Shown piece by piece: positions 1,295-60,607 of a stretch of DNA of 64,000 nt. The notes under the pieces are model-generated. The model was not told the DNA's origin. It ran no database searches and saw only the letters and a list, made by a program, of their open reading frames with translations. The stretch is from NCBI RefSeq assembly GCF_016756595.1, contig NZ_AP023257.1, positions 6,278,001 through 6,342,000 on the forward strand, given 5' to 3'. The position numbers and the translations under genes are program-made. Every line of letters begins with the position of its first letter. The stretch's first letter is position 1. Source of the stretch: Mesorhizobium sp. L-2-11. Its GTDB lineage: Bacteria; Pseudomonadota; Alphaproteobacteria; Rhizobiales; Rhizobiaceae.

Positions 1295-1567
1295 TCCAAG
1301 ACGCCAGGCTTGTGCGAGATGAAGATGAAGGCGATGCCGATCCACTCTTGCAGATCCATGGGCAGGGTTCACGATCTGGGCCTACACGAAGACGTCCAGG
1401 GCCGAGGCCCTCTCGTCGGCGATGATATGCGAGACTTGAAGGGCCGCTTCGGCGCAATGTGCCGAGCTCTGGCGCGGGCCAACCGACAGTGCGGACGGGA
1501 CTTTGCGGGCGACGAGGGCCTTGGTCATACCGCCCAGTAGGGCCTGCCGGCGGAGCTTAGGGCCCAT
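1295..1567 (-). pseudogene. Remnant of an oligopeptide ABC transporter ATPase (DppF type)
   Basis: Minus-strand frames here contain a decayed Walker B/D-loop region, IIADERASALDV, which matches [12 protein letters not shown] of the intact DppF-like protein encoded at 31822-32853. The following DNA (1310-1370) still aligns with the part of that gene encoding the [14 protein letters not shown] region. The frame is broken and both ends are missing, so it cannot make an ATPase. It is one of several fragments of a peptide-transporter module scattered in the window. Confidence 0.6.
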
Positions 1568-1607
1568 CTGGGCGCTAGATGACCCAGATATGGATACTGC
1601 ATTTGAC
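1564..1607 (+). promoter_or_regulatory. 44-bp conserved upstream box, copy A (MFS gene)
   Basis: One of six ungapped 44-bp copies. Read on the strand of the downstream gene it starts CCATCT, has the dyad CATCTGGGCGCTAGATG, and ends GCATTTGAC. The end lies 127 bp before the preferred MFS start at 1734. The terminal TTGAC could be a -35 element. Function is inferred from recurrence and position. Confidence 0.6.
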
Positions 1608-1733
1608 GCAAGCTAGCAGGTGATCAATCTTGGACTGGAACGAGATTGCAAAATGGTGGCAATCTGCGCCTGCACATCTTCCGCGCAGGGCGTGTCTATA
1701 CGAACCGTCAAACGAGAGGCGACACTCCGAAAT

Positions 1734-3389
1734 ATGCGCAGGGTGGCGGAAGCAGATGACGACCCAGTTTCGCCGGCGACGTTTGCGCCACTTATGCAGC
1801 CGACTTTTCTTTCGATCTGGCTCGCCACCCAGGTCTCTACTCTCGGCTGGTTGATGCAGACTGTCGCCATCAGCTGGCTGATGGCGACAGTCTCGACTTC
1901 CGATCTGATGGTCGCGCTGGTACCGGCGTCATCGACGCTGCCCGCATTCATTCTATCTGTCTTCGTCGGGGCCATCGCCGACAATTTCAACCGTCGCAGG
2001 GTCATGTTCGCCGGCCGGTGCATTATGGTGATAGCATCTGCCATGCTGACTGCGTCTGTGGCGCTGGGCTTTGTCGACCCGTGGATGATCCTCGGCTTCA
2101 GCTTCTTGATCGCATGCGGGGGCGCTCTCAATGATCCCGCCTGGCAAGCCTCGGTTGGCGATATCGTGGACAGACGCGATGTTCCCGCTGCGGTCAACCT
2201 CCTCTCCCTCGGCTTCAACACTGTCCGCACCGTGGGCCCGGCGCTCGGCGGCATCGTGGTTGCCTCGTTCGGGCTGCTGACGGCTTTTGCCGTGACCACA
2301 CTCAGCTACCTGGTACCTCTGGGGACCATATGGCGCTGCAAGTGGAAGGTTCGCTCTTGGCCTCTTCCGCGTGAGCCGATGAGGACGGCGATCTATGACG
2401 GGCTGCGCTTCACGGCGATGTCGTCCGAAATCAAGGCGGCGATCGCGCGCGGAACTCTCTTTGGCCTGGCAAGTATCGCCATACTCGCGCTGCTGCCCCT
2501 GGTCGTCCGCGATCAGCTGGGAGGAGGACCACTCGCCTATGGCGCCCTCATGGCCGGCTTCGGGACAGGCGCTGTCATCGCCGGCATCTCCAATGGCATG
2601 TTCAGACGGATCTTGTCTCAAGAACGACTAATGACGCTCGCGTGCGTCGCCTGCGCGGCATGCTCCCTCTCCCTTGCGCTGACCTCTTCGATTGCGGTGG
2701 CGGCAATTGCGCTCGCCTTGGGCGGCGCGGGCTGGGTCACAGCCTGGTCCGGGGTTGCCGTGAGCGTACAGCTGGCGAGCCCGCGCTGGGTCGTGGGTCG
2801 CACCATCTCGATCTATTATGCATTGATAGATGGCGGTATCGCGGCCGGCAGTTGGGTGTGGGGCACGGTGGCGCAGAACCATTCCCTGACCTTGGCGCTG
2901 GAGGGTTCTGCTGGTGCTCTGTTGCTCGTTGTCGCGACCGGCGCGTTGTTTCCTCTGCGCGAGCGCCGCGAGTCCGAGCCCGATCCTTTGGAGGAATTCG
3001 ACGCCCCAGTTGTCGCTGTCAATCTGAACCCAAGAAGCGGTCCCATCGTCATCAGGGTCGAATATCTGATAGCCGAGAGAAATCTAGAGGCTTTCCTCGA
3101 CCTCATGCGGCAGCGGAGGCATGTACACAGCCGCGTCGGTGCTCGGAATTGGACGCTCCAGCGCAACCTTCAGAAGCCTATGCAATGGACAGAGACGTTC
3201 CGCACACCGACCTGGACGGACTACCTTCGACTCAATTATCGTCTCACGGAAGACGACAAGGAACTGGACGAACGGGTCCTTCTCCTGCACGGAGGAGATA
3301 TCCCACCTCAGACCACGCTTTCGATTGAGCGACCCACAGGCTCTGCTCGCAATACCGAGCCATTAACGCCTTATTTTCCCCACCGTTGA
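1734..3389 (+). CDS. MFS exporter of the MFS_3 family with C-terminal antibiotic biosynthesis monooxygenase-like tail
   Basis: A 551-residue major facilitator protein in the inner membrane. About 400 residues of alternating hydrophobic segments begin with FLSIWLATQVSTLGW and include the cytoplasmic-loop motif GAIADNFNRRRV. They are followed by a soluble tail (about residues 415-535) with the pattern RVEYLIAERNLEAFLDLM and a WTETFRTPTW stretch, as usual in this family of EntS-like exporters, in which the tail resembles a small ferredoxin-like domain. The ATG at 1734 is preferred to upstream starts because it follows GAGG, begins close to the usual family start, and lies downstream of the putative promoter box at 1564-1607. 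The substrate is unknown. No partner gene is adjacent. Confidence 0.8.
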   Translation: MRRVAEADDDPVSPATFAPLMQPTFLSIWLATQVSTLGWLMQTVAISWLMATVSTSDLMVALVPASSTLPAFILSVFVGAIADNFNRRRVMFAGRCIMVIASAMLTASVALGFVDPWMILGFSFLIACGGALNDPAWQASVGDIVDRRDVPAAVNLLSLGFNTVRTVGPALGGIVVASFGLLTAFAVTTLSYLVPLGTIWRCKWKVRSWPLPREPMRTAIYDGLRFTAMSSEIKAAIARGTLFGLASIAILALLPLVVRDQLGGGPLAYGALMAGFGTGAVIAGISNGMFRRILSQERLMTLACVACAACSLSLALTSSIAVAAIALALGGAGWVTAWSGVAVSVQLASPRWVVGRTISIYYALIDGGIAAGSWVWGTVAQNHSLTLALEGSAGALLLVVATGALFPLRERRESEPDPLEEFDAPVVAVNLNPRSGPIVIRVEYLIAERNLEAFLDLMRQRRHVHSRVGARNWTLQRNLQKPMQWTETFRTPTWTDYLRLNYRLTEDDKELDERVLLLHGGDIPPQTTLSIERPTGSARNTEPLTPYFPHR

Positions 3390-3706: not shown

Positions 3707-3750
3707 CCATCTCGCCTCTAGATGATAGTGATAGACAGACTGAATTTGAC
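3707..3750 (+). promoter_or_regulatory. 44-bp conserved upstream box, copy B (etfB-etfA)
   Basis: Second copy of the box. The dyad is CATCTCGCCTCTAGATG and the end is ACTGAATTTGAC. It lies 348 bp upstream of etfB. TTTGATG follows the TTGAC after about 16 bp, a poor -10 candidate. The 348-bp leader carries no gene I can recognise. Confidence 0.6.
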
Positions 3751-5937: not shown

Positions 5938-5944
5938 GGCATCC

Positions 5945-6795: not shown

Positions 6796-6839
6796 CCATC
6801 TCGAAATCAGATTAGCCCAATTCACAAACTGAATTTGAC
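6796..6839 (+). promoter_or_regulatory. 44-bp conserved upstream box, copy C (oxidoreductase pair)
   Basis: Third copy. Its dyad is the weakest on one side (AATCTG on the opposite strand) but the TCGA core and the end AAACTGAATTTGAC are intact. It lies 185 bp upstream of the start at 7025. Just before it is the end of the purU remnant, so the box belongs to the 7025 gene rather than to etfA-purU. Confidence 0.58.
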
Positions 6840-10972: not shown

Positions 10973-11041
10973 TCCGCGACCAAGTGAATCAGCCCTGATT
11001 CCGCAGTCGCGGGCCGTCGGCGAATATGGTCTGATCCGTTC

Positions 11042-13510: not shown

Positions 13511-13520
13511 GCTCGCGCCG

Positions 13521-21163: not shown

Positions 21164-23650
21164 TCAAGCCCGCACCCGCTCGCTCCTCGGGTCATACATC
21201 GGCTTAAGCGAGACGTCCGCGGCAAAGCGCTCACCTGCAATCTCGATTTCGTAAGAGGAGGAGAGCAGCTCTTCTTCGCTTTCATTCTTGCAAGATACAT
21301 ATCCAAGGCCTATGGCTCCGCCGAGCGTATGCCCGTAGTCAGCGGACGTGATTGTTCCCGCGATCCGACCATTTCGGAAGATGACCTCGTTGTGATGCAT
21401 CAGTGGAGTGGGATCTTTGAGCCGAAACTGAACCAGTCGACGCCCGAGCCCCGCCTCACGTTTTCTCAGCACGGCATCTCGCCCGATAAATCTAGGCTTT
21501 GCTGTTTTTACGGCGAAGCCCAATCCCGCTTCGAGCACATGATCATCGCTGCCAATATCTTCCCCAAAACCCCGATATGCCTTTTCGATGCGGCAGGAGA
21601 GAATGGCATGCAGCCCACACAGCTTGAGTCCGACATCCGCGCCGGCTACCTCGATTGCTTCGAAGACATGCGCGGCTTGGTCAGTTGGGACGTAAATTTC
21701 CCAGCCCAACTCGCCAACATAAGTCACTCTATGCGCCCGCGCCAGGCCCATGCCGATCTCAATTTCCTGGAAGGTGCCGAACGGATTGTTCTTATTGGAA
21801 AAATCATTCGGGCTTACTCTGCCGAGCAGTTCGCGCGAACTTGGTCCCATCACCGCCAGAACGCTTTCCGAAGCCGACATATCGGTTATAACGACGAACT
21901 CGTCGCCTACATGCCGCCGGAGCCAAGACAAATCGCGATGCAATGTGAAGGCCGAAACGACGAGCAGGAAAGCAGTCTCCGTGAGGCGACTCACGGTGAA
22001 GTCGCTCTCGATCCCGCCGCGCTCGTTCAGCATTTGCGTATAGACGATCCGGCCGATCGGCACGTCAACGTCGTTGGAGCAAAGCTGCTGGAGGAAGCTG
22101 CAGGCGTCTCGTCCCTCCACACGGATTTTTCCGAATGAGGTCAAGTCGAAAATACCAACACGTTCGCGTATCGCCACGTGCTCGTTGCGCTGATTATCGA
22201 ACCAGTTTTGGCGGTGCCAGGAGTAACGATACTCGCGCTCCTGGCCCTGCCTGGCAAACCAGTTGGCTCGCTCCCAGCCTACCGCCTCGCCGAACACCGC
22301 GCCCCTCACTTTGAGATGCTCGTGAATTGGCGAGCGTCGAACATCGCGCGAAGTTGTCATCTGACGGGCGGGGAATTGGTCGGCATAGGTAACCCCCACA
22401 ATCTCCGATACCCGCTCTCTCAAGTAGGAACGATTCTTCTGAAAAGGCTGCATCCGACGGATGTCCACACCTGACAGATCGAATGGCGGCTCGCCGTCAT
22501 TCATCCACTGTGCCAGCGCTAAGCCCGCCCCACCCGAGGAGGCTATCCCTCCGGTGTTGTAACCGCACGCTACCCAATAGCCTCTAAGTTCGGGAGCTTC
22601 TCCCAAAAGGTAGTGATCGTCGGGTGTGAAGCTTTCTGGCCCATTGAAGAAGGTGCGGATACCGGCCGTGGCCAGGATCGGCATGCGCTTCAGAGCCTTC
22701 TCCATAATAGGTTCGAAATGCGCAAAATCCTCAGGCAGCTGATCAAAGCAGAAACTTTCCGGGATGCCATCCATTCCCCACGGCTTCGCCTTCAGTTCTA
22801 CCGCCCCAAAAAGAATTTTGCCTGCATCTTCCTTGTAGTACGTCTGCTCGTCACGAACACGAAGTACCGGCAGTCGGGTCAGCCCTTCTATCGGTTCTGT
22901 GATCATGTAGAAATGTTCGCAGGCATGCAGTGGAATCGCGACGTTGCTTTTTGAGCCTAATTCCCGGGCCCACATCCCGGCGCAGTTTACGACGTTGTCT
23001 GTTTCAATTACCCCTCGCTCGCCATCCTTCTCCCATGTCACGCTCGACACCCGACCGTTCCTCGTCTGAACACCAGTGACTTGCACTCCTTCAAATATGG
23101 CAGCGCCGCGCATACGTGCGCCTTTGGCGAGCGCCATCGTGACATTAGTTGGATCACATTGCCCATCATTAGGAAAATGGAGCGCAGCAGTGACGTCAGA
23201 TACATCTACATGAGGGTGCATTTCCTTGAGTTCATCTACAGAGAGCTTTCGCGCCTCGGCACCGACTGCGGCCGCTAGAGACAGCTGCCTGTAAAACTCG
23301 TGCTTGCGCTCTTCGGTGAGGGCGATAGACAACGAGCCGACGCGGCGAAGTCCGGTCGCAATCCCTGTTTCTTCCTCCAGGCTAGAGTACAGCTGCATTG
23401 AGTACTTATAAAGGTTTGGCGTTGAAGCAATAGGCGGCTCACTCACTAAGCCGGCTGCATGCCAGGTTGTGCCGCAAGTAAGCTTTTTGCGTTCAAGCAG
23501 AATGACGTCGCTCCATCCGAGCTTTGCTAAGTGATATGCTATTGAGCATCCGGACACCCCGCCCCCGATTATGACGACTCGCGCTTTGAAGGGCAGCGAC
23601 TGCTTTTCGGACAACTGAACAAACTCGCTAACTTCTGGTGAAACGCTCAT
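21164..23650 (-). CDS. Dimethylglycine/sarcosine dehydrogenase-like flavoprotein
   Basis: An 828-residue two-domain protein of the DMGDH/SarDH family. The N-terminal DAO domain has the FAD motif VVIIGGGVSGCSIAYHL (about residue 25) and TTWHAAGL (about 63), where the family histidine binds FAD covalently. The C-terminal half (about 430-815) is a GcvT-like folate-binding aminomethyltransferase domain, with RERVGIFDLTSFGK, MLNERGGIESDFTV and GLHAILSCRIEKAYRGFGEDI. Such enzymes oxidatively demethylate dimethylglycine, sarcosine or related N-methyl amino acids, giving 5,10-methylene-THF and passing electrons to EtfAB, which is encoded at 4.1-5.9 kb. The exact substrate is not determined. The regulatory box at 24232-24275 lies 582 bp upstream. 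No adjacent operon partner. Confidence 0.85.
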   Translation of the reverse strand: MSVSPEVSEFVQLSEKQSLPFKARVVIIGGGVSGCSIAYHLAKLGWSDVILLERKKLTCGTTWHAAGLVSEPPIASTPNLYKYSMQLYSSLEEETGIATGLRRVGSLSIALTEERKHEFYRQLSLAAAVGAEARKLSVDELKEMHPHVDVSDVTAALHFPNDGQCDPTNVTMALAKGARMRGAAIFEGVQVTGVQTRNGRVSSVTWEKDGERGVIETDNVVNCAGMWARELGSKSNVAIPLHACEHFYMITEPIEGLTRLPVLRVRDEQTYYKEDAGKILFGAVELKAKPWGMDGIPESFCFDQLPEDFAHFEPIMEKALKRMPILATAGIRTFFNGPESFTPDDHYLLGEAPELRGYWVACGYNTGGIASSGGAGLALAQWMNDGEPPFDLSGVDIRRMQPFQKNRSYLRERVSEIVGVTYADQFPARQMTTSRDVRRSPIHEHLKVRGAVFGEAVGWERANWFARQGQEREYRYSWHRQNWFDNQRNEHVAIRERVGIFDLTSFGKIRVEGRDACSFLQQLCSNDVDVPIGRIVYTQMLNERGGIESDFTVSRLTETAFLLVVSAFTLHRDLSWLRRHVGDEFVVITDMSASESVLAVMGPSSRELLGRVSPNDFSNKNNPFGTFQEIEIGMGLARAHRVTYVGELGWEIYVPTDQAAHVFEAIEVAGADVGLKLCGLHAILSCRIEKAYRGFGEDIGSDDHVLEAGLGFAVKTAKPRFIGRDAVLRKREAGLGRRLVQFRLKDPTPLMHHNEVIFRNGRIAGTITSADYGHTLGGAIGLGYVSCKNESEEELLSSSYEIEIAGERFAADVSLKPMYDPRSERVRA

Positions 23651-24231: not shown

Positions 24232-24275
24232 GTCAAACAGTGTTTATGGATTGTCGGCATCTAGAAACGAGATGG
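24232..24275 (-). promoter_or_regulatory. 44-bp conserved upstream box, copy D (dimethylglycine dehydrogenase-like gene)
   Basis: Fourth copy, reading on the minus strand toward the gene starting at 23650. The dyad is CATCTCGTTTCTAGATG and the end is CACTGTTTGAC. GATTGATCTT lies about 16 bp after TTGAC. The distance of 582 bp to the gene is the longest of the set; an insertion in the leader is possible. Confidence 0.58.
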
Positions 24276-33857: not shown

Positions 33858-33858
33858 G

Positions 33859-34740: not shown

Positions 34741-34741
34741 A

Positions 34742-35683
34742 TCAGTACCGGATACGGGGATCGATTAAGGTGTACGCCAGATCGACTGTGAGGTTGATAA
34801 GGACGTACACACCCGAAGTCAGGATGAGCACACTCTGGATGATCGGATAGTCGCGGTTGTTGATCGCATCCACAACCAGACGACCGATACCGGGTATGTT
34901 GAACACCGTTTCCGTGAGGACAACTCCGCCGATCAGATAGGCGAAGCTTATGCCGATGACGGTCAGGATTGGCGCGCCGGCATTCTTCAAGGCATGGTGG
35001 AAAAGCATGGCATGGGACGAAGCGCCTTTGGCAGCGGCGGTTCGCATATAGTCTTCCGACAAGACCTCGAGCATGCTAGCCCGCGTAACCCGCGCGATGA
35101 ATGCGATGTAGCCCAGACTTAGCGCCACGGTGGGAAGGATCAGATGCACGAACCAAGGCCCGAGGCCACCATCGATGGGCTCATATCCCTGCACCGGTAG
35201 CCAGTGTGTCTTGATGGCGAAGAAGTATATGAGAAAATAGCCGATGACAAAGACCGGGACGGAATAACCAAGTGCCGAAAAGGCCGTGAGGAGGCGGTCG
35301 ACGAGACCGCCAGATCGCCACGCGGCAAGGATGCCGAAGGAGACCCCGACCGTCACCGAAAGCATCATCGTCAGGATCGACAGGGAAAGGGTCGGCTCAA
35401 GCCGCTGCGAGATGAGGTCCAGAACCGGTCGTCCGGCAAAGATCGAGGTGCCGAAATCACCGCCTAGCATATCCCGCACCCAATGCATGAACTGAACCGG
35501 CATAGGATCGTTCAGGCCCAGCTTTTCACGGATGCCGGCGATCATCTCAGGCGTCGCGTTGCGGCCAGCGATCATATCCGCGGGGTCTCCGGGCGCCAAC
35601 CTAAGAAGCAGAAATACAAAAATCCCGACCATCGCCATGACGGCGATGGTCGAGACCATTCTGCGTAGGATGTAGACAGCCAT
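34742..35683 (-). CDS. Dipeptide ABC transporter permease, DppB type
   Basis: A 313-residue permease starting MAVYILRRMVSTIAVM, with the DppB pattern LLRLAPGDPADMIAGRNATPE (about residue 25), WVRDMLGGDFGTSI, and the EAA-like loop MRTAAAKGASSHAMLFHHAL (about 205). About six membrane spans. The ATG at 35683 overlaps the last base of the dppA stop (TAATG), which points to coupling with dppA and rules out the longer upstream start. Confidence 0.9.
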   Translation of the reverse strand: MAVYILRRMVSTIAVMAMVGIFVFLLLRLAPGDPADMIAGRNATPEMIAGIREKLGLNDPMPVQFMHWVRDMLGGDFGTSIFAGRPVLDLISQRLEPTLSLSILTMMLSVTVGVSFGILAAWRSGGLVDRLLTAFSALGYSVPVFVIGYFLIYFFAIKTHWLPVQGYEPIDGGLGPWFVHLILPTVALSLGYIAFIARVTRASMLEVLSEDYMRTAAAKGASSHAMLFHHALKNAGAPILTVIGISFAYLIGGVVLTETVFNIPGIGRLVVDAINNRDYPIIQSVLILTSGVYVLINLTVDLAYTLIDPRIRY

Positions 35684-37281: not shown

Positions 37282-37634
37282 GTTCAGTTCCCCTTTGGTT
37301 TGTGGCGACAAACGATGAGCGCTATTCGCTGGATCGGGTGCCTTTCTGCAGGTCGACGTTGTCGATCGAATCCTCGTCGGATGTCTGCCGCAACGTTGAT
37401 CCCACCCTTGGCGCGGAACGGCGCCACTTTAGCTGCAGGGTCGCGTTTTCCATCCCACAGTCAATTAAACTGAAGCCCGGCGAGGTGCGGATGATTGAGC
37501 CCCGACGGCAACTGGCCAACATTGATGCCGCCTGCGGTTTACCAAATAGGCACATCGCCTCCTCCGCCTTGCGACTGTCTTGCTGTCTTGCTTTTTGGCT
37601 TATCGGTGGATTTTCAATTGCCGAAGGGCTTTGC
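37282..37634. other. Leader of the dpp operon
   Basis: About 350 bp between box E and dppA. No gene I can support; the long minus-strand frame 37322-37978 looks spurious. Confidence 0.4.
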
Positions 37635-37678
37635 GTCAAATTCAGTGTGTGTATTGAAGTCATCTGGTTTTGAGATAG
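37635..37678 (-). promoter_or_regulatory. 44-bp conserved upstream box, copy E (dpp operon)
   Basis: Fifth copy, reading on the minus strand toward dppA. It begins CTATCTCAAAACCAGATGAC and ends ACACACTGAATTTGAC. It differs from the others at the second base of the CCATCT start and in the dyad core. It is the copy with the most degenerate dyad after copy C. Confidence 0.56.
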
Positions 37679-51390: not shown

Positions 51391-52176
51391 TCAGATCATG
51401 AACGAGCCGCCGTTGACGTCGAGCGTCACACCCGTGAGGAAGGCAGCGTCTTCAGACGCCAGGTAGGCGACCGCAGCGGCGATGTCCTCGCCGGTGCCAA
51501 GTCGGCCGACAGGAATGCGGGCGACGTAAGCCCGGTTAAGCTCGGCACCAGCCGCGGCAGCCATCGGTGTTTCGATGCGGCCCGGCGCAATGGAATTCAC
51601 CGTAATGTTCGCTGTGCCAACTTCAACCGCAAGGGTGCGGGCAAGGGCCATCATGCCGGCTTTGGACGCGGCATAGTGGGCTCCTGCAATCTCGGTTTTC
51701 GTTCGGCCGGCCACTGAAGCGATGTTGATGATCCGGCCCCATTTCGCCGCCCGCATGTGGGGAAGGCAGGCCCTGCAGCAGAGGAAGGCGCCTGTCAGGT
51801 TAACTTCGAGAACCTGACGCCACTCCGCGGCGAGCATCTCTTCAACCGTAGCCTTCAGTCCGCCGTGTTTCGGAGAGATTCCCGCGTTGTTGACCAGGAT
51901 GTCGACCCGCCCGAATCGGGCCGCTGCTGACTCGACCATTCGCGTGACATCAGCGTCTTTGGACACATCAACGCGCACCGCCAAGGCCCGCCCAGTACAG
52001 TCCGAAGACAGGGTCGAAATGCTGGCGTTCAGGTCACTCTCGGAGAGGTCCGTCAGCACCACACCGGCGCCGGCGTTAAGAAACCGCGTGGCGATCGAAA
52101 GTCCGATGCCCCGCGCGGCGCCTGTCACCAGAGCCACCTTGCCCGCGAATGCGGGTGCGTGCGAAATCTGGTCCAC
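51391..52176 (-). CDS. SDR-family oxidoreductase
   Basis: A 261-residue classical short-chain dehydrogenase. The cofactor motif VTGAARGIGLSIA is near residue 18, LVNNAGIS near 94, and the catalytic Ser-Tyr-Lys in NIASVAGRTKTEIAGAHYAASKAG (Ser about 149, YAASK about 163). The end ASEDAAFLTGVTLDVNGGS is typical of FabG-like members. Asp at the end of the second strand (VVLTDLSE) suggests NAD rather than NADP. It lies 13 bp from the cyclase-family gene on the same strand, so the two are probably in one operon with the TPP enzyme. Substrate unknown. Confidence 0.85.
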   Translation of the reverse strand: MDQISHAPAFAGKVALVTGAARGIGLSIATRFLNAGAGVVLTDLSESDLNASISTLSSDCTGRALAVRVDVSKDADVTRMVESAAARFGRVDILVNNAGISPKHGGLKATVEEMLAAEWRQVLEVNLTGAFLCCRACLPHMRAAKWGRIINIASVAGRTKTEIAGAHYAASKAGMMALARTLAVEVGTANITVNSIAPGRIETPMAAAAGAELNRAYVARIPVGRLGTGEDIAAAVAYLASEDAAFLTGVTLDVNGGSFMI

Positions 52177-52189
52177 GACGTACTTCCTC

Positions 52190-53212
52190 CTACACTGTGG
52201 CGACGGGTGTCAGCGGCGAGCCAAACGAGCCGGGCAGGCGCAGAGGCGGGGCGGTAAGGAAAAACCGGCTACGGTTGTGATCTCTTAGCCACGCAGCCAA
52301 GTCCGATAGGTACCAGAGCTCGCCAAGGGGAAGGCCAAGCTTGAACAGACACTGCTGGTGCAGCGGCAGGCCGGCGCAGTGGTCGCAGTCGTCCGGTACG
52401 CGATTCGGATAGGCCTCCACCGCGAAGTTGTCGGCAACCAGCGCGGCGATACCGCAGTCGTCGATCCACCGGAGCAGCCTGTCGTCCCGCCCCTCTAGTA
52501 CGGCGCAGGCATTGTGCAGAACACGCGGATCCGGGCTGCCGTCCATGTCGACAACAAGTTTGGCGAATCCGGTGTGAATGCACAGCATGTCGCCCGCCTC
52601 GACTTCAACGGACTGACTCTGCATAGCATGCAACAGGGCATCGTAGCCGACCAGGGTCCGGTCCCGTCCATAGATCCTGCCTAGGTCAAGCAGCACGCCC
52701 CTACCTTGGACGCAAGTCTCGGCGAACTTGTCGATGCCTAGTCGGCGCGCGCGGGCTCCGCCTTCGGCATCGGGTCCAAGAACATCCGTGCCGCCCTTGA
52801 AGCCATTATAATAGACGATCTCAGCGGTGCCGTCACCGTCGGCGTCGAAATGCTGCCCGATGTGGCTAAGGGCGTCCCACTGCGTCGAATATTGTGTGAA
52901 TAATGTCACGCTGTCATCGCAGGAAGCGTCGATGTAATGGGTATTCTCCAGATGTAGCGGATAGTTCACCGCCGGCAGTCCCTGCTTGCGTGTCGCCACA
53001 TGACGACGGGGCGGCTTTCGGTTCGGATTGAGCGCAGTCCCGCCGGGAAGGTCCAGCGGCAAGCTGAGGCAGAAAGCCCGGCCGGTCCTGATCTCGGCGG
53101 CCGCTTTCAGGCGGATGTCATCCGTGATCAGGTTGAGACGCCCGACTTCGTCGTCGGCGCCGAACAGGCCCCAGTTTGCGCCTTCCGGCTTATTGTTCCA
53201 TCGGTTGCCCAT
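52190..53212 (-). CDS. Cyclase-family (kynurenine formamidase-like) hydrolase
   Basis: A 340-residue protein of the large-cyclase/formamidase-like family (PF04199). The family hallmark is the metal-site segment, here STQWDALSHIGQHFDADGDG (about residue 110), followed by VLLDLGRIYGRD and the second site EAGDMLCIHTGF (about 205) and LVADNFAVEAYP (about 260). Members hydrolyse amide or lactone bonds; the substrate is not known. It sits between the TPP enzyme (17 bp upstream) and the SDR gene (13 bp downstream), all on the minus strand. Confidence 0.82.
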   Translation of the reverse strand: MGNRWNNKPEGANWGLFGADDEVGRLNLITDDIRLKAAAEIRTGRAFCLSLPLDLPGGTALNPNRKPPRRHVATRKQGLPAVNYPLHLENTHYIDASCDDSVTLFTQYSTQWDALSHIGQHFDADGDGTAEIVYYNGFKGGTDVLGPDAEGGARARRLGIDKFAETCVQGRGVLLDLGRIYGRDRTLVGYDALLHAMQSQSVEVEAGDMLCIHTGFAKLVVDMDGSPDPRVLHNACAVLEGRDDRLLRWIDDCGIAALVADNFAVEAYPNRVPDDCDHCAGLPLHQQCLFKLGLPLGELWYLSDLAAWLRDHNRSRFFLTAPPLRLPGSFGSPLTPVATV

Positions 53213-53228
53213 GTAACGCCATTCCGCT

Positions 53229-54935
53229 TCAGTGATCTAGGGTCCCGGCAAACAGCGAAATCGGAGGATGCGCATCGGGATCCGTCATCACCTCGATGAG
53301 TGTCGGCCGCTCGGCCGCGAGGGCTTGCTTGAGGACCTCTGGCAGATCCGCAGCGTCGTCGACTCTTATCCCTTCGCAGCCACAGGCGCGCGCAATCGCC
53401 GCGTGATCAACCGCTGCAAAATGGCAGGCTGTGGTATAGGCCCCAAACTTCACGGTTTCGGCGTCCTTCTGGAAGCCGAGGATGCCGTTGTTCAGGACGA
53501 CGACCGTCACCGGAATTCCCATGCGGACCATTGTCTCCAATTCGGCCCAGGAATGTGCAAAGCCGCCGTCCCCGACGATCGCCACAACAGGTGCCGAAGG
53601 CCGCGCGACTTTTGCTCCCATGGCGAGCGGAAGGCCCCATCCGAGCCCGGCGAGCCCACGGGGTGTGAGGAAGCGCATCCCTTCCCGTGGCGCTCGCAAA
53701 TGACCCACGACCCACATCGATGAGTAGCTTGCATCAGCGGTGATGATCATCTCCGGCTGGATCAGATTCTGCAGTTCGGCCATCACACGTTCCGGCCTGA
53801 TCCCTCCGGTTCCCTGCATTAGAAGGGGTGCCCTGACCGTCTCGAACTGGCGCCACGCGTCGGCAATCCGATCGACCAGACCGGGGCGCGCCTGTGATCT
53901 TGCCTTGAGATCTTGGGTCTTGAGGGCCTGCGTGAGTGCTTTGAGGGTTTCTGCCGCATCCCCGACGAGACGGACTGCCTCATAGTTGCGCCCGATCTCC
54001 TGCGGGTCAAGGTCGATCTGGATGATCTTTGTGCCCGGGCGAATGAGGCGCCAGCTGTCAGTGCCGTTCTGGTTGTTTCGTGTTCCAACCTGCAGGATGA
54101 GGTCGGCGTCCTCGACCAAGCCCCGCGTGAAGCGGCCAAGCGATGTTGGCCCGACGAGGGATCCGAGCACACCGAATGAAAGGGGGTGGAATTCATTGAC
54201 GGCACCCTTGCCCATGTTCGTCGTGAATACAGGGAGCGAGGCAAATTCCTGAAGGTTCGCCAGAGCCGATGGCGCGCCGGTGGAAAGCGCGCCCCCACCT
54301 GCCACGACCACCGGGCAATGGGCTTTCGCGATTAGGAAAGCCGCTTCGGCAATGCTGGCATCCGACGGCCGGGTCCGGTCGAGCGGCCAGGCGCTGAGGC
54401 ATGCCTCGCGCTTGTGGGCGCTGGGCTGAGCTGTCTCGCGGAGCAGGTCAGCCGGCAGTAAAAGGACGGCAGGCCCCGGCCGGCCACTCGCCGCAGCCAC
54501 GAACGCGGCGTCCACGTAATCGTCAACCCGATCCGCGGTGCCAATCCGGCGCGTCCACTTGGCGCAGGATGCGAAAAGCGCCAGGTGATCGAGTTCCTGA
54601 AAGGCATTCTTGTCCACTTGCGGTCGCTCTACCTCCTGAACGAGAGCTACCACGGGGATGCTGGCCTTCAGGGCCTCGGCCAGCGGTGCAACGAGCAGTG
54701 CCGCTGCTGGACCGTTCTGGGCGGTGACCACCGCGACCTGTCCCGAGGCCCTCGCGAAACCGTCGGCCATCGCACCACCCATATTCTCCTGGCGGTAGGC
54801 GATTTGACGGATTCCGATTTCCTCCGCAGCGAGGATCACGGCGGAAGGAAGGCTCTGACCGAATATGAACTTCACGCCGTGGCGCGATAGCGCACGGGCG
54901 ATTGTTACGGCAACTGTAGGTTCGGTTTCTGTCAT
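53229..54935 (-). CDS. Thiamine-diphosphate enzyme, acetolactate synthase-like
   Basis: A 568-residue member of the acetohydroxyacid synthase/benzoylformate decarboxylase family. The catalytic glutamate region AYRQENMGGAMADGFARASG is near residue 46; the middle domain LILQVGTRNNQNGTDSWR follows; the ThDP-binding GDGGFAHSWAELETMV with the later VLNNGI is near 460. It carboligates or decarboxylates a 2-oxo acid. The second helix region lacks features to tell acetolactate synthase from other members, and no small regulatory subunit gene is adjacent, so a catabolic carboligase or decarboxylase role is favoured. It starts the TPP-cyclase-SDR operon; GGAAGAAACACC lies before the ATG. Confidence 0.82.
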   Translation of the reverse strand: MTETEPTVAVTIARALSRHGVKFIFGQSLPSAVILAAEEIGIRQIAYRQENMGGAMADGFARASGQVAVVTAQNGPAAALLVAPLAEALKASIPVVALVQEVERPQVDKNAFQELDHLALFASCAKWTRRIGTADRVDDYVDAAFVAAASGRPGPAVLLLPADLLRETAQPSAHKREACLSAWPLDRTRPSDASIAEAAFLIAKAHCPVVVAGGGALSTGAPSALANLQEFASLPVFTTNMGKGAVNEFHPLSFGVLGSLVGPTSLGRFTRGLVEDADLILQVGTRNNQNGTDSWRLIRPGTKIIQIDLDPQEIGRNYEAVRLVGDAAETLKALTQALKTQDLKARSQARPGLVDRIADAWRQFETVRAPLLMQGTGGIRPERVMAELQNLIQPEMIITADASYSSMWVVGHLRAPREGMRFLTPRGLAGLGWGLPLAMGAKVARPSAPVVAIVGDGGFAHSWAELETMVRMGIPVTVVVLNNGILGFQKDAETVKFGAYTTACHFAAVDHAAIARACGCEGIRVDDAADLPEVLKQALAAERPTLIEVMTDPDAHPPISLFAGTLDH

Positions 54936-55055
54936 GGTGTTTCTTCCGATAGAGTTCTGAAAGGTCAGGCGCAGAGTGACCGCGGCCCAAGGCGCGTGTC
55001 GTGCCCTGCGGTTGACACGCTGGCACTGCCCGGGGCCCTAACGAGTAGTGCGGCT
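54936..55055. other. Short gap between the two minus-strand operons
   Basis: 120 bp; no clear hairpin terminator noticed. Confidence 0.3.
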
Positions 55056-56828
55056 TCAGACCGCGGCGAGCGTGGGGGCGGAAGCGGCTTGCATTCTGGA
55101 TCTTGACCGCCACCAGACGAAGTACATAGCGACGAGCCAGAGCACGGGCAGAAGCATCAGCAGCGACGCTACCGCGGCGACGGTAGGGTCGATCTCATGC
55201 CGGATGTTTTCCCACATCTTTAAGGGAAGCGTGCGTATGGATAGACCGCTGACCAGCAAGGATATGACCACTTCGTCGAATGAATGAAGGAAGGCAAAAA
55301 CCGCCCCGCCGAGGATGCCTGGCCGGATCAAAGGCAGTGTCACCCTCATGAACGTCCGGAAGGGCCCGGCCCGCATGCTCTTAGCGGCTTGCTCAAGGCT
55401 AGTGTCAAAGTTGGTCAGCGTTGCCGCGACGACAGCCACGACATAGCTCATAGCGCCAATGCTGTGCGCCAAGACGATGCCCGTCTTCGACCCGACCAGG
55501 CCGAAGGATACCAGACCAAGGTAGGCTGCGATGCCTACCACGATCACCGGAAAGGTGATCGGTGCCAGGAGGATCAACGTGAGCACGTTGCGCAGCATTG
55601 GCGTGCTGCGGCTGAGTCCATAGGCGGCCAGCGTACCGAGTATGGTCGAGATTATGGTTACCGAGATTGCAATTTCGAAACTGCTGAGCGCGGCCCTGTT
55701 CCACGACGGATCGGCAAAAAACGAACGATACCATTGCAAGGAAAAGCCGGATGGAGGGAATTCCAACTGCGTTCCGGCGCTGAACGACACGATGATCACC
55801 ACCACACCCGGGAAGAGGAGAAAGAGTAGGGTGAATATGACTAACGTGATCCCCGGGTACCTCCAGACACGGGTGGCGTCGCCAGCGCGGTAAAGATGCG
55901 TCTTCCAGCGACGCGCCCGCCCAACCGTGCCGAGCTCAATGAGGTGTCGCGCCAAGGCCCCCGCTGCGGGAAAACGGTTTCGCCGAACCGACGCAGCATT
56001 GCCTTGGGGGCCGGCCGGATTGAGTCTGAGGACGGCGAGCACCGTCATCGCGATCGCGAGGAGAATAAATGACGCGGCCCCTATCCGGCCGAGATTGAAC
56101 GAGCTTTGCACCTCAGCCGCGATGAAAGTCGAGAGCATGACATCGCGCAGGCCACCGAGGGCTGCGGGCGTGATGTAGAATCCGAGGCTCAGGATGAAGA
56201 CGAGCAACGCACCGCTGCGTAAGCCGGGCAGACTGAGCGGGAAGAACACGCGCCAGAAGGCCGAGAACGGACGCGCGCCCATGCTGCGCGCGGCTGCCAC
56301 TTGCGACTTATCGATTCCGAGCATCACGCTCACTAGCGGCAGGATCATGATCGGCAACATGATGTGGACCATGCCGATGTACATGGCCATACGGTTGTAA
56401 ATCAGAGGCAGAGGACTCGTGATGACGCCCAGATCGAGCAGCAGGTTATTGATGAGGCCGCGGTCACCCAGGATCATGACCCAGGCGTAGGTTCGGGCCA
56501 GGGAGCTCGTGAGATACGGGATCAGGACGAGGATGACCAAGACGGTCCGGACCTGCTTCGAAGCAGCCGTGATCAGGTAGGCCGTCGGATAGCCGATGAG
56601 AGCGCAGATGACCGTGGCTGCGATGCTTACCTCGAGGGTCTGGATGAGGACGCGAACGTTCGCAGGACGCACGAAGAACGTCAGGTAATTGACGAGGGAG
56701 AACGCGGGTGCGTTGATGCTGTTGAAGAAGAGCTGGACGATCGGTATGGCAAAGACGAGTAGCAGGAGGCAGAGCGCCGGAAGGGTCAGCCCAACAGAGG
56801 CCCGCGTAAGCTTTTGTAAAGTCAACAT
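55056..56828 (-). CDS. Fused ABC transporter permease (PotB-PotC type in one chain)
   Basis: A 590-residue inner-membrane protein with two BPD_transp_1 domains. The first half (about residues 1-280) has LTLPALCLLLLVFAIPIVQL, and the EAA loop QVAAARSMGARPFSAFWRVF; the second (about 320-590) begins YPGITLVIFTLLFLLFPGVV and has the EAA loop SLEQAAKSMRAGPFRTFMRV. In most polyamine/Fe-type importers these are two genes. The ATG at 56828 is preferred; a GTG at 56849 overlapping the ATPase stop (GTGA) is also possible. It works with the ATPase and binding protein next to it. Confidence 0.85.
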   Translation of the reverse strand: MLTLQKLTRASVGLTLPALCLLLLVFAIPIVQLFFNSINAPAFSLVNYLTFFVRPANVRVLIQTLEVSIAATVICALIGYPTAYLITAASKQVRTVLVILVLIPYLTSSLARTYAWVMILGDRGLINNLLLDLGVITSPLPLIYNRMAMYIGMVHIMLPIMILPLVSVMLGIDKSQVAAARSMGARPFSAFWRVFFPLSLPGLRSGALLVFILSLGFYITPAALGGLRDVMLSTFIAAEVQSSFNLGRIGAASFILLAIAMTVLAVLRLNPAGPQGNAASVRRNRFPAAGALARHLIELGTVGRARRWKTHLYRAGDATRVWRYPGITLVIFTLLFLLFPGVVVIIVSFSAGTQLEFPPSGFSLQWYRSFFADPSWNRAALSSFEIAISVTIISTILGTLAAYGLSRSTPMLRNVLTLILLAPITFPVIVVGIAAYLGLVSFGLVGSKTGIVLAHSIGAMSYVVAVVAATLTNFDTSLEQAAKSMRAGPFRTFMRVTLPLIRPGILGGAVFAFLHSFDEVVISLLVSGLSIRTLPLKMWENIRHEIDPTVAAVASLLMLLPVLWLVAMYFVWWRSRSRMQAASAPTLAAV

Positions 56829-56845
56829 CTGCGAGTCCCCTGAGA

Positions 56846-57943
56846 TCACGTCGTGACGAAGCGGATGTCCGATCTCAACCAGTCGAGCTGAATGGTGTCC
56901 CCGAGCTGGAAAATCTGACGCCCCGCGGCGACATGTTCGCGTATGACCAGGTCGTTATCGCCGACAGCCACGTGGTATCTTCGCAGCGGGCCAGCATAGA
57001 TCATATCGGTCACGGTGCCGGCGACATGCTGGCGCTGATCGGCGTCGGCACTCATCGTGGTGCCAGGAGCGGAGATCCGTATACGTTCCGGCCGGATCAT
57101 CGCGACGGTGCCGTCCGGTTGCGGCGTGTCCGCCTCAACGGCGAATGACGGATCATCGAGGATGTTGGCGTCCCCAAGGAAATTCGCGACAAACCGGGAG
57201 ACAGGACGGTCATATAGCGCCTCAGGCGTGTCAGTTTGCTCAATTCGTCCAGCGTTCATCACCACGATCCGATCGGAAAGTGTGAGCGCCTCCTCCTGGT
57301 CGTGTGTGACACACACCGTGGTGATTCCGAACTCCTTGTGAAGCCCCTTGATCTCACCCTGCATTTGCTCACGCAGGTTACGGTCGAGTGCTCCCAACGG
57401 CTCATCTAGCAACAGGATTGGAGGGTCGGCTATGAGGGCCCGGGCGAGCGCCACGCGCTGCTGCTGCCCACCGCTGAGCTGCGATGGCATGCGGTCACCC
57501 AGGCCGTCTAGATGGACACGTGACAGGATACGTTCGGCTCTCGCAGCCCGTTCAGCCGACCTGATGCCGCGCATCTCGAGCGGAAATTCAAGGTTGCGGC
57601 GAACAGTAAGGTGCGGGAAGAGCGCATAGCTTTGGAAGACGATGCCCTGATCGCGCCGATAGGAAGGTACCGAGGCGACGGACTTCCCCGCGATGCGGAT
57701 ATCACCTTCGGTAGGCGCCTCGAACCCAGCCAGCAGCATGAGTGTCGTCGTCTTGCCAGAACCGCTCGGACCAAGGATCGTGAGGAACTCGCCGCGCCCA
57801 ACGGTCAACGACAGGCTCCTGACGGCGGTGACCTGACCGTATAGTTTGGTGACGTTCCGAAATTCGATTTGCTCGGAAAGAGCGAGTTTCTCCAATGGTC
57901 TATCCTTAGCTAGCGGATGCAGCGTTCTGACAGGTGCATTCAT
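56846..57943 (-). CDS. Polyamine-type ABC transporter ATPase (PotA-like)
   Basis: A 365-residue ATPase. Walker A is ILGPSGSGKTTTLMLLAG near residue 56, Q-loop FQSYALFPHLTV near 104, signature QLSGGQQQRVALARAL near 150, Walker B ILLLDEPLGALDRNLRE near 170 and H-loop CVTHDQEEALTLSDR near 202. A C-terminal TOBE domain (about 270-365) is typical of the spermidine/putrescine and Fe(III) importers. ATG at 57943 gives the usual length; a longer frame upstream is unlikely. Confidence 0.88.
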   Translation of the reverse strand: MNAPVRTLHPLAKDRPLEKLALSEQIEFRNVTKLYGQVTAVRSLSLTVGRGEFLTILGPSGSGKTTTLMLLAGFEAPTEGDIRIAGKSVASVPSYRRDQGIVFQSYALFPHLTVRRNLEFPLEMRGIRSAERAARAERILSRVHLDGLGDRMPSQLSGGQQQRVALARALIADPPILLLDEPLGALDRNLREQMQGEIKGLHKEFGITTVCVTHDQEEALTLSDRIVVMNAGRIEQTDTPEALYDRPVSRFVANFLGDANILDDPSFAVEADTPQPDGTVAMIRPERIRISAPGTTMSADADQRQHVAGTVTDMIYAGPLRRYHVAVGDNDLVIREHVAAGRQIFQLGDTIQLDWLRSDIRFVTT

Positions 57944-58028
57944 GTTCGTCACTCCAAGCCGAACGATGACGTGCCGGGTTCGGCGCGGCACGTCATCGGT
58001 AAATGCCGTCGCAAAAGCCGACGGGGGC

Positions 58029-59141
58029 TTAAAGCAGGATCCACTCGTTCCAGCGCTGGACCAGCTTTTCGGTGTTCGTGAGCCCGTCCGATCCCTTCTC
58101 GGCGTACCATTTCGAGTTGATTAGCACACTTGACCTCAGATAGTCGGGGTGGCTGGCCAGCGAGCGCCCGAGGTCTTCCGGCAGAACCTTGAAGGCGTTG
58201 AGGTTGCTCGGGCCGAACGGCATGAGTTGTGAAAATGCTGCCTGACGGTCGGCGCGCGCGGTAAATGCAACAAACTTTTGCGCAGCGTGCGCGTTAGGAG
58301 ACCCCTTCAGAATCTGCCAGTAGTCCCAAGTTATTTTCGCCTGGTTACGATTAATTTCAAGCGGTGCTCCCTGCTTGATCAACGTGCCGGCCCTACCGTC
58401 ATAGGCATTCACAAGATCTACCGCCTTGTCATGCATCATCTGCTGGATTTCGGACCCTGTTCCCCACCACTTGCGAATATCGGGCTTTATTCTGTCCAAA
58501 CTTTTGAAAACACGATCTATGTCCATAGGATATATTTCCTTTGGAGCCACGCCGTCGGCGAGAAGGGCTTCCTCCCAAGGGCCTTCTGAACCATATTGGC
58601 CGCTGACAAGACTGCGGACACCCGGGAAACTGTTCACGTCCCAGAATTCCGCCCATGTGGTCGGCCGCGGCTTACCCGCTGGGAATTTTTCGGTATTGTA
58701 GACCATGACGTAAGCATAAACTACGTTAGCTACGCCAAACGGCTGCTTTGCGAAGTCGGCGAGCCCGTCTAGGTCTTCTGTCCTGTAAATAGAATAATCA
58801 ATCGGCTCAAAAAGACCCTTTTGGGACAACTCGAACGAAGATCCCTGGTTAGCGGTGACAACATCGACGGTGACGTTATTCTGCGCAACCATCATCTCGA
58901 TCGACGCCCGGTCACCCTGATCGGTAATCGGGGTCATCTTAATGCCTGTTTCGGCTTCGAACGGTTTTACATAAGCCTCAATCATCGCCTTTCCGGTATC
59001 GCCACCGTAGACAAGGACGCGCAGTTCGCCAGGAGTCTGCCCCGATGCCTTGTTACTGGCAATGGAAAGTGCGCCGGCAGCCAAGGCGGTTGATGCTGCC
59101 TGCATGAAACGCCTGCGGTTAATGTTAATAGAGAAGCTCAT
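58029..59141 (-). CDS. Periplasmic substrate-binding protein (PotD-like), Tat signal
   Basis: A 370-residue extracellular binding protein, first gene of the import operon. It has a twin-arginine type signal (NRRRFMQAASTALAAGALSI), then ELRVLVYGGDTGKAMIEAYV and FEAETGIKMTPITDQGDRAS, the start of a SBP_bac_8/PotD-like fold. Asp/Glu-rich binding features of true polyamine proteins cannot be judged by eye, so the ligand could be a polyamine, an opine or another cationic compound. 85 bp separate it from the ATPase gene. The region 59142-59326 before it has no 44-bp box. Confidence 0.83.
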   Translation of the reverse strand: MSFSININRRRFMQAASTALAAGALSIASNKASGQTPGELRVLVYGGDTGKAMIEAYVKPFEAETGIKMTPITDQGDRASIEMMVAQNNVTVDVVTANQGSSFELSQKGLFEPIDYSIYRTEDLDGLADFAKQPFGVANVVYAYVMVYNTEKFPAGKPRPTTWAEFWDVNSFPGVRSLVSGQYGSEGPWEEALLADGVAPKEIYPMDIDRVFKSLDRIKPDIRKWWGTGSEIQQMMHDKAVDLVNAYDGRAGTLIKQGAPLEINRNQAKITWDYWQILKGSPNAHAAQKFVAFTARADRQAAFSQLMPFGPSNLNAFKVLPEDLGRSLASHPDYLRSSVLINSKWYAEKGSDGLTNTEKLVQRWNEWILL

Positions 59142-59326
59142 TGGCCATCCCCTTTTTTAATGTTGAGCATAATGAATATGCAATTTTCGCCGAATCAGCG
59201 GACAGCGCATCGAGACTTCCCGAAGTGATCTCCGCGGTGCCGCCCGCGCTCCTGTCCTGCGCGCTTCAAGGTCAACCGAAGCATCTCTCGCCCTTCAGCA
59301 CGGTTTACGAGCCGTAACCCGACAAG

Positions 59327-60490
59327 TCAGGCCGCCAGGATCTTCTCGACGAGGGTTACCCAATAGCCCACGCCATAAGGGATCGCCTCGTCGTCGAAAT
59401 CGTAAGCGGGATTGTGCAAGCCCGGCGTCGAGCCGTTCCCCAAGAGGATGATCGCGCCCGGCCGCGCTTCCAGCATGTAGGCAAAGTCCTCGGATCCCAT
59501 CGAAGGCTTGACGTTGTCGTTTACGGCGTCGTGGCCCACGAGGCCGCGGGCTGCGGTGATCGCGAGATGTGTTCCGGCCGTGTGGTTGAATGTGAGGGGC
59601 TCGAGCCGCCGATGCGTGAACTCAATTTCCGCGCCGAGCCCGCGGGCCACACCCTCGGCGCATAACCTGATCTGCTGCTCCGCCAAATCGCGCACGGCGG
59701 AGGTCAGACTCCTGACAGTGCCACCCATTTCGACCTGGTCCGCGATGACGTTGTAGGCTTGGCTCGCCGTGAACTTCGTGACAGAAACGACGAGGGCGTC
59801 AGTGGGATCGGTGTTGCGGGATACCACGGTCTGCAGGGCAACGATGATTTGTGCGGCGGTGACCACAGGGTCGACGGTCCTGTGGGGCGAAGCTGCATGA
59901 CCGCCCCTCCCCTTGACGATGATGTCAAACTCGTCAAGCGCCGCCATCATACCGCCGTCCCGGATGGCGAACTGGCCAATGTCCGTGCCGGGTGAGTTGT
60001 GCATGCCGTAGACCTGGGAGATGCTGAAGCGGTCCATGATCCCTTCCTGGACCATCTTCAAAGCACCTCGTCCATTTTCCTCGGCAGGCTGGAAGATCAA
60101 AGCCACCGAGCCTTTGAAGTCGCGCGTCGCGGCGAGGTGTTTTGCAGCCGCCAGTAGCATCGTGGTGTGGCCGTCATGGCCGCACGCGTGCATTTTGCCG
60201 GGTATCCGCGAGGACCACGCCTTGTTCGACGCTTCGATGATCGGCAGGGCATCCATATCGGCGCGCAGTCCGATCGTCGGCCCCTCCCCGCCCTCACCCT
60301 GGATCAGGGCAACCACGCCGGTCTCGGCGATGCCCGTCTCGATGTGGTTGATACCGAAGGAAGCCAGCTTCTCCGCAACGAACTTCGCCGTATTGTGCAC
60401 CTCGTATCCCAGCTCCGGATTCTGGTGCAGGTAGCGTCGCCATTGCGTGGCTTCGTCCTGGAGATGTCGGAAAGTGTCGACGCTGTGCAT
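59327..60490 (-). CDS. M20-family amidohydrolase (hippurate hydrolase/HipO-like)
   Basis: A 387-residue M20D metallohydrolase. Metal ligands lie in MHACGHDGHTTMLLAAAKHL (about residue 96), QPAEENGRGALKMV (about 132), VYGMHNSPGT (about 160) and the C-terminal MGSEDFAYML (about 348). A dimerisation lid domain is between 180 and 290. Such enzymes split N-acyl amino acids (hippurate, N-acetyl or indole-acetyl amino acids) into acid and amino acid in the cytoplasm. Box F ends 74 bp before the start, so this is the gene closest to its box. No operon partner; the PotD-type import operon follows on the same strand after 185 bp. Confidence 0.87.
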   Translation of the reverse strand: MHSVDTFRHLQDEATQWRRYLHQNPELGYEVHNTAKFVAEKLASFGINHIETGIAETGVVALIQGEGGEGPTIGLRADMDALPIIEASNKAWSSRIPGKMHACGHDGHTTMLLAAAKHLAATRDFKGSVALIFQPAEENGRGALKMVQEGIMDRFSISQVYGMHNSPGTDIGQFAIRDGGMMAALDEFDIIVKGRGGHAASPHRTVDPVVTAAQIIVALQTVVSRNTDPTDALVVSVTKFTASQAYNVIADQVEMGGTVRSLTSAVRDLAEQQIRLCAEGVARGLGAEIEFTHRRLEPLTFNHTAGTHLAITAARGLVGHDAVNDNVKPSMGSEDFAYMLEARPGAIILLGNGSTPGLHNPAYDFDDEAIPYGVGYWVTLVEKILAA

Positions 60491-60563
60491 CTGCTAGTTC
60501 CAAGCTTTTTCTGTTGGCGGCAAACGCCTTATTCAAGCGAGCATCATTCCCCGGGACAGTTTC

Positions 60564-60607
60564 GTCAAATGCCGTTTGTATATCTTCGGCATCTAGTAAC
60601 GAGATGG
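60564..60607 (-). promoter_or_regulatory. 44-bp conserved upstream box, copy F (M20 amidohydrolase)
   Basis: Sixth copy, reading on the minus strand. The dyad is CATCTCGTTACTAGATG, the best-formed of the set with copies A, B and D, and the end is GGCATTTGAC. TTGAC is followed by AATGATG about 16 bp later and the gene begins 74 bp after the box, a distance fit for a promoter at the box end. A second dyad ATGCCG-CGGCAT lies within the box. Confidence 0.65.

Follow-up and report, generated by a model that had tools for sequence, protein, structure and literature searches.

LysR-type activators are described in the accessible part of PMC11739112 as working from promoters with a recognition site and an activation site, the nod box with NodD forms a dispersed regulon on symbiosis islands according to the available text of PMC7643969, and the doe genes are, in the portion of PMC3187862 at hand, parts of ectoine degradation. 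Here we describe a 44-bp box that recurs in a 64,000-nucleotide stretch of Mesorhizobium sp. L-2-11 (contig NZ_AP023257.1, positions 6,278,001 to 6,342,000; this whole stretch is called the window, and genome positions refer to the same contig, C1) and compare it with these systems. Very probably, the box is the segment with the regulator-binding sites and the -35 in a LysR-type activator promoter that works as proposed below through the LysR protein encoded at C1:6273320-6274270 (minus strand, window -4680 to -3730, 3.7 kb left of the window), a protein resembling the nitrogen assimilation control (NAC) regulators. The switch is of a known kind and the regulon is apparently undescribed. No description of the box or of the LysR regulon was found in the open-access literature, which is weak as an absence because most subscription papers lie outside that scope, and neither is described in the accessible parts of PMC5596368, PMC7643969, PMC4990936, PMC10771577, PMC4417242, PMC3973600, PMC11739112, PMC3187862, and PMC4682846.

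Six copies of the box lie in the window, at 1564..1607, 3707..3750, and 6796..6839 on the plus strand and at 24232..24275, 37635..37678, and 60564..60607 on the minus strand. They precede, in that order, an MFS exporter gene, etfBA, a pair of flavin adenine dinucleotide (FAD) oxidoreductase genes, a dimethylglycine-dehydrogenase-like gene, a Dpp/Opp-type ATP-binding cassette (ABC) importer, and an M20 amidohydrolase gene with a PotD-type ABC run. The initial annotation, made from the letters of the window alone, had listed these six ungapped 44-mers and the kind of gene next on the strand of each, and all were found as it described, every copy starting with C(C/T)ATCT and ending in TTTGAC. The dyad it had given, CATCTnG-n3-CnAGATG, is present in that exact form in only four of the six copies, whereas the core ATCT-N7-AGAT is present in all six. 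It had also called the box absent before the M24 DoeA/EutD-like gene (62676..63893, minus strand), which was wrong, as a seventh copy on the minus strand lies upstream of this gene at C1:6342005-6342047 (window 64005-64047). This was an edge effect, because the seventh copy begins 5 bp beyond the end of the window. The absence claimed before the PotD-type operon is literally true but misleading, since 186 bp separate this run from the boxed M20 gene that precedes it, both on the same strand; a Rhizobium plasmid carries homologues of the M20 gene and the PotD run, equally ordered, downstream of a box, and nine boxes outside the window directly precede a PotD homologue of 58-65% identity. When matrices were built with one copy left out at a time, the left-out copy scored 35.7-48.9 bits compared to 13.1-16.1 bits for the best other site in the window, and five shuffled windows gave at most 13.6 bits with the six-site matrix. 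Across the box the seven copies have a mean pairwise identity of 0.69, and in the 60-bp flanks it is 0.28 on one side and 0.31 on the other. In the whole genome (7,416,043 bases, five contigs) the model search, in which 150 of the 443 first-look candidates were scored, gave seven matches at E<=10, all of them on contig 1 between 6279564 and 6342047 and thus within 62.5 kb, and an independent pattern scan with up to three mismatches gave the same seven sites and a weak site at 6273219. Rfam gave zero matches in the window and therefore the box is no known RNA element.

The anatomy of the box was examined in 148 boxes of at least 30 bits, collected from the window, 29 box loci, 20 regions of other genomes, and 108 further stretches, and a logo was built from the 146 boxes that are distinct over 70 bases. 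It has an AT-N11-AT at positions 3-17, each of the four letters of the AT pairs at 3-4 and 16-17 being present in 97-100% of the boxes, and 22 bp on a second AT-N11-AT at 25-39, whose pairs at 25-26 and 38-39 are conserved in 93-99% and which runs into TTTGAC at 39-44. Between the AT pairs A31, A33, C34, T35, and G36 are conserved, position 45 is G in 63%, and a looser [G/T]A[A/T]NNT at 63-68 is a candidate -10, giving TTGACg-N17-(-10); the columns 5' of the box carry a mean of 0.05 bit (147 sequences). The initial annotation was right that the dyad lies 5' of a -35. A pair of half-symmetric T-N11-A sites spaced by 22 bp, of which the second touches the -35, is also the arrangement of LysR-type activator promoters in the accessible part of PMC11739112, and the linked LysR gene with a dyad before it is shared as well; what is different here is that a strikingly invariant block of 44 bp is reused before many unrelated first genes, mainly in rhizobia. 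Positions 3-17, centred at about -65, would be the recognition site and positions 25-39, centred at about -43, the activation site, which would touch the -35 TTGAC(g) at 40-45, with the -10 following after 17 bp. These two centres are counted from the -35 and are otherwise those of textbook LysR promoters. The transcript start is predicted from this layout to lie about 30 bp 3' of the box. Loose sigma-54 patterns gave three matches in 184 kb (6280912, plus; 6384886 and 6376346, minus), none of them before the LysR gene.

The LysR gene is part of a same-strand run that comprises the genes of an AstE-like protein, methylaspartate ammonia-lyase, a CoA-transferase, a CitE-like protein, LysR, an aldehyde dehydrogenase, fumarase, an Lrp regulator, and an aminotransferase. 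The 5' part of the AstE/EutE-like deacylase gene reaches into the window (1..884; genome 6277889-6278884, minus strand), upstream of methylaspartate ammonia-lyase, and its product is 71-74% identical to boxed or annotated AstE-family proteins. The best NCBIfam match of LysR is NAC, which covers nearly the whole protein with 172.9 bits but is below the cut-off of 309 bits, and its gene neighbours and its site differ from those of NAC regulators. No PDB chain matched LysR at E<=1e-20. Of 35 LysR loci, 29 have an ATCT-N8-GAT dyad before the gene, in most cases at -31 to -41 relative to the aligned start and once at -64, compared to 0.9% in shuffled upstream sequences. Behind the LysR gene a 44-bp box-like site is present in 30 of the 35 loci, all 30 with TTTGAC at the box spacing, and in this genome it stands before the aldehyde dehydrogenase gene. 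Judged from sequence, this LysR is most likely the protein that reads the boxes. One regulator with a dispersed regulon, as the initial annotation had supposed, is well supported and now has a candidate regulator. By analogy with the LysR family, we infer that a LysR tetramer would hold both the recognition and the activation site and that RNA polymerase would be recruited when an inducer shifts the tetramer on the activation site; through the dyad directly preceding its gene, LysR would restrain its own expression. LysR would in this way switch on one dispersed regulon that travels with symbiosis genes and consists of importers, hydrolases, and oxidases breaking amide or cyclic-amidine nitrogen compounds into amino acids.

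When the genus was examined, a genome was counted as box-positive at E<=0.001 with model R1, stricter filters being used in searches of more than 40 genomes, and as LysR-positive at 60% identity or more, by which G028 and G141 (40% identity) were removed and 80 genomes became 78. Boxes were found in 71 and LysR in 78 of 146 genomes, and 70 genomes have both. Among the 101 genomes bearing NodA, 69 have both, one has the box only (G140), eight have LysR only, and 23 have neither (Fisher p 5e-15), and G102, which has no NodA match, carries boxes and two LysR copies (86% and 61%). Weak boxes were seen among the eight genomes with LysR only: G074 and G077 have three each, at most 19 kb from a LysR copy of 70% identity, which include one full 44-bp form, one of 43 bp, and one ending in TTTGTG; in the draft G083 one lies on the contig of LysR and two lie on a different contig; and G015 and G055 also have weak boxes, that of G015 about 4 kb from LysR. 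On 17 contigs that also carry LysR there are 47 boxes, 36 of them within 50 kb and 45 within 120 kb of LysR, as counted from printed box positions on contigs chosen for carrying LysR, drafts such as G027, G040, and G114 being left out.

The association extends beyond the genus. The exact pattern was found in 80 titled stretches, 73 from Mesorhizobium (M. amorphae CCNWGS0123 and M. ciceri bv. biserrulae WSM1271 among them), two each from Aminobacter and Microvirga, and one each from Phyllobacterium, Aquimarina, and 'Bacterium M00.F.Ca.ET.205.01.1.1', in a scan for whose size about two chance matches are estimated. In box-bearing genomes LysR is present with 91% identity in Aminobacter, 71% in Phyllobacterium, and 72% in Microvirga, and it is also present in M. 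albiziae (91%) and M. sp. L-8-3 (85%); it was not found in Aquimarina, whose box is a likely chance match. A family-wide search of 394 genomes gave boxes in six, three of them outside the genus, and LysR was tested in public genomes taken as two of these three, with G308 left out. Relatives of LysR were also found on 12 plasmids of Rhizobium, Mesorhizobium, Sinorhizobium, and Microvirga, and the seven plasmid regions examined all have matrix matches above the best of ten shuffles, as predicted for the surroundings of LysR. At the boxed Rhizobium and Sinorhizobium loci the LysR relatives are about 56-70% identical, and in three of them, with LysR at about 56%, two M20 genes have the two best matches (25.8-35.0 bits) upstream, namely on R. 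leguminosarum pRLN3, R. bangladeshense p3, and S. meliloti M270 accessoryA. Behind the first of these M20 genes pRLN3 has binding protein, ATPase, and permease genes that are 60%, 71%, and 63% identical to those of the PotD-type run of the window and in the same order, and the LysR cluster also has homologues of the window M24 (67%), CapA (67%), DppA (58%), and M20 (68%) genes; the homologues of M20, PotD, ATPase, permease, M24, CapA, and DppA, at 57-71%, are all around LysR. Judging by these matches, units that are scattered with their own boxes in the window form one compact cluster on the plasmids.

Several observations weigh against the pairing of LysR with the box. The co-occurrence numbers and the Fisher p are inflated because LysR and the box share islands and descent, and the cross-genus cases reduce this inflation without removing it. 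G140 is box-positive (2.7e-8) and lacks a LysR match at E<=1e-60, and of the eight genomes with LysR only, G006 (LysR in pieces), G089 (partial LysR), and G100 have no convincing box. The second LysR copy of G077 (85%) is without a strong box, and in G047 the distance to the nearest LysR copy is 378 kb for one box and 431 kb for another. Some plasmid matches are without the exact TTTGAC end, namely the one of 31.8 bits in locus L241, both in L243, and the first M20 matches in L244-L246. Finally, no box is recognisable at the methylaspartate ammonia-lyase operon beside LysR in this genome, whereas elsewhere boxes precede AstE-like genes that share 74% identity with the first gene of this operon (cluster 13).

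Left of the window, at a distance of 91-175 kb, there are four nod boxes that deviate from the published consensus at one position (6103347, 6172828, 6177662, and 6186556). That side of the window also has a NodA gene (6185873) and two LysR genes (6170612 and 6172906), the second of which has what we take to be a NodD-like N-terminus, and because of these neighbours we regard the window as belonging to a symbiosis island. The nod box at 6172828 is accompanied by a second nodA-like stretch with in-frame stops (C1:6172338-6172751, minus strand), and similar broken copies are found in other members of the genus. Transposase genes and genes of tyrosine- and serine-recombinase type (IS66, IS91/Y2, rve-type, IS30, Mutator, and others) interrupt the catabolic units of the window at 10259-12328, 13209-14717, 15364-19597, 27034-28440, 30414-31178, 42913-43686, and 44730-46025, as is usual on symbiosis islands.

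Given these nod boxes so near the window, the box could be a variant nod box or SyrM box that is read by NodD or SyrM, and its genes would then answer to plant flavonoids. The likeness is real, for in an ungapped comparison with the four nod boxes of this genome 21.3 of 42 positions are identical, compared to 10.9 +/- 2.0 when the columns of the nod boxes were shuffled, and none of 5000 shuffles was as high as the real comparison; the first nod-box half, ATC-N9-GAT, is present in all six window copies with an AT following at the same spacing, and 70 of the 71 box-bearing genomes have NodA. This common layout is accounted for because both elements look like LysR promoters. However, the second half of the nod box, ATC-N6-ATCGAT, and its AAT end, as the consensus reads in the accessible part of PMC4990936, are missing from the boxes, and the nod boxes of this genome score -11.5 to 4.9 on the refined matrix compared to 47.2-63.9 for the seven boxes. 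Among NodA-bearing genomes the boxes track the NAC-like LysR (69 versus 1) and 31 of the 101 have no box at E<=0.001, NodA and not NodD being the marker used in the genus, and boxes are present without NodA in G102. Also, the boxes precede catabolic and transport genes and not nod genes. After the co-occurrence and matrix tests the nod-box identity was dropped, and we regard it as unlikely; the sequence comparison covered nod boxes and not the SyrM box, which in S. fredii would be 66 bp long from the positions given in the accessible part of PMC4990936.

That the boxes are read by some other transcription factor encoded on this island, with the NAC-like LysR merely travelling along with that factor, is very unlikely. 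Co-occurrence is unable to separate linked genes, and the gene run of LysR, like the Rhizobium plasmids, includes an Lrp/AsnC regulator, but the AT-N11-AT pair with its fixed -35 is a LysR layout, the dyad stands before the LysR gene itself in most loci, and the nearest other LysR genes (PF00126; 150 of 229 first-look candidates scored), those at 6170612 and 6172906, are about 100 kb off. The reading of the boxes as a mobile or dispersed repeat is almost certainly wrong and was dropped on the genome-wide count and the flank comparison, since in spite of the many transposase and recombinase genes of the region and of two boxes elsewhere whose first open reading frame is transposase-like by eye (cluster 17), there are seven copies in 7.4 Mb and not the hundreds that the initial annotation had named as the mark of a repeat, and these are clustered, point at genes, have unrelated flanks, and are conserved in a manner graded by promoter part.

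Taking the box as the promoter of a LysR regulon, we looked at the genes behind it. An open reading frame of at least 80 amino acids is present within 700 bp behind 136 of the 148 boxes, 12 being without, and these frames fall into 45 clusters, 22 of them single. Of 102 boxes, 93 have a frame of at least 250 amino acids whose start lies at most 700 bp downstream, compared to 17 with one in the upstream-divergent direction. Families were taken from Pfam for 30 representatives (cluster 12 had no match) and for the window genes, each cluster being given the family of its representative, and the following counts are influenced by close relatives among the genomes: 41 of the 136 boxes precede an ABC binding protein gene and 59 precede the gene of an M20, M24, M55, or S15 peptidase, an amidase, an AstE/AspA protein, or a beta-lactamase-fold hydrolase, and the remaining first genes include those of MFS, FAD, electron transfer flavoprotein, PGA_cap, PTE, PrpD-like, and AMP-binding proteins as well as short frames. 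By these assignments the first genes would mostly encode importers and amide-type hydrolases. Of the N-acyl or N-methyl substrate that the initial annotation had suggested, the N-acyl form is favoured by the hydrolases behind the boxes, and the case for N-methyl comes only from the sarcosine-oxidase- and dimethylglycine-dehydrogenase-like genes.

In the window, the MFS exporter frame is at 1620..3389 (plus; PF05977), its true start being probably after the transcript start predicted near 1638, and it is followed on the same strand by etfB (4099-4848; PF01012) and etfA (5008-5937; PF00766), which encode an electron transfer flavoprotein, and by the sarcosine/opine-oxidase-like FAD pair (7025-8644 and 8472-9797), for which the sarcosine oxidase models are below cut-off. 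On the minus strand, the dimethylglycine-dehydrogenase/sarcosine-oxidase-like gene (21164..23650) encodes 828 amino acids with an FAD part and a GcvT-like part, all named models being below cut-off. The Dpp/Opp-type importer (31822..37311) consists of an SBP_bac_5 protein 58% identical to that of pRLN3, two permeases, and two ATPases, and the aminoacylase-like M20 gene (59327..60490) scores above the cut-off of TIGR01891. The genes of the PotD-type binding protein, ATPase, and permease, a thiamine pyrophosphate enzyme, an unnamed frame, and a short-chain dehydrogenase (51391..59141, minus) have gaps of at most 186 bp and are probably one unit with the M20 gene. Upstream of box 4 there is a PGA_cap (CapA-like) gene (24782-26152, minus), the one with the 67% homologue in the pRLN3 LysR cluster; another PGA_cap gene is directly behind a box in L056, and the CapA-like gene may serve the same function as the regulon. 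Positions 46780-48060 (plus) encode an ATP-grasp protein whose C-terminal domain is of the L-amino-acid-ligase type (PF18603), and no box was found near this gene. A different recurring motif, CCATCTGnAAAnnCGATGG then TATATTGG, is present at 993-1036 and 26566-26609 (both minus) and at L095:8626 and L241:16378, with sub-threshold matrix matches in several loci, and is perhaps the site of another regulator or the end of an element.

The gene content also invites comparison with ectoine degradation (doe/eut) clusters, in which, according to the accessible part of PMC3187862, M24 EutD-like, AstE/EutE-like, M20 DoeB2-like, Lrp/AsnC, aldehyde dehydrogenase, and class III aminotransferase genes recur together as they do here; in this genome the Lrp/AsnC regulator, aldehyde dehydrogenase, and aminotransferase genes are all beside LysR. 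The clusters differ in that here a LysR box is proposed as control, the run continues into methylaspartate ammonia-lyase (aspartate ammonia-lyase on pRLN3 and R. bangladeshense p3), and the tested hydrolases score under the ectoine cut-offs. The M24 protein of the window has 276.8 bits and its pRLN3 homologues have 404.2 and 267.3 bits compared to the DoeA/EutD cut-off of 613, the window M20 protein has 330 bits compared to 550 for DoeB2, and the AstE-like protein of Mesorhizobium sp. 131-3-5, which is 71% identical to the AstE-like protein here, has 222.6 bits compared to 402.7 for DoeB/EutE. The methylaspartate ammonia-lyase is well above its cut-off (689 bits compared to 286). The glutamate mutase E subunit (PF06368) gave no match in this genome, with a thin control as only one of 14 control genomes matched, and below cut-off; in the tentative pathway given below methylaspartate would therefore come from the regulon substrate. 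It is also stated in the accessible part of PMC4682846 that class I fumarases can act as mesaconases. Ectoine-type parts together with methylaspartate ammonia-lyase, a fumarase/mesaconase, and no glutamate mutase would point to a modified, perhaps C-methylated, ectoine-like or N-acyl substrate. A tentative possibility is that the regulon is an ectoine-degradation-like pathway for a perhaps C-methylated nitrogen compound from the legume root or nodule, recruited via portable LysR promoters. The importers would take this compound up, EutD/EutE/DoeB-like hydrolases would open and deacylate it, and aminotransferase and aldehyde dehydrogenase would yield 3-methylaspartate, which methylaspartate ammonia-lyase, class I fumarase as mesaconase, CoA-transferase, and the CitE-like lyase would carry to central metabolism.

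Symbiosis islands hold many catabolic genes without known purpose. If the box is the LysR promoter that we propose, such genes would form a single testable set under one regulator whose promoter box is sharp and countable, a set that is present in about half of the Mesorhizobium genomes examined (71 of 146) and in some other rhizobia, and a second nod-box-like promoter would be travelling with symbiosis genes. A dedicated LysR with portable 44-bp promoters would let symbiosis islands recruit further catabolic units one by one. The boxed uptake and breakdown genes of a nodule bacterium would then be one coordinated set answering to one food compound, and their shared chemistry would point to a substrate class that symbiosis may supply.

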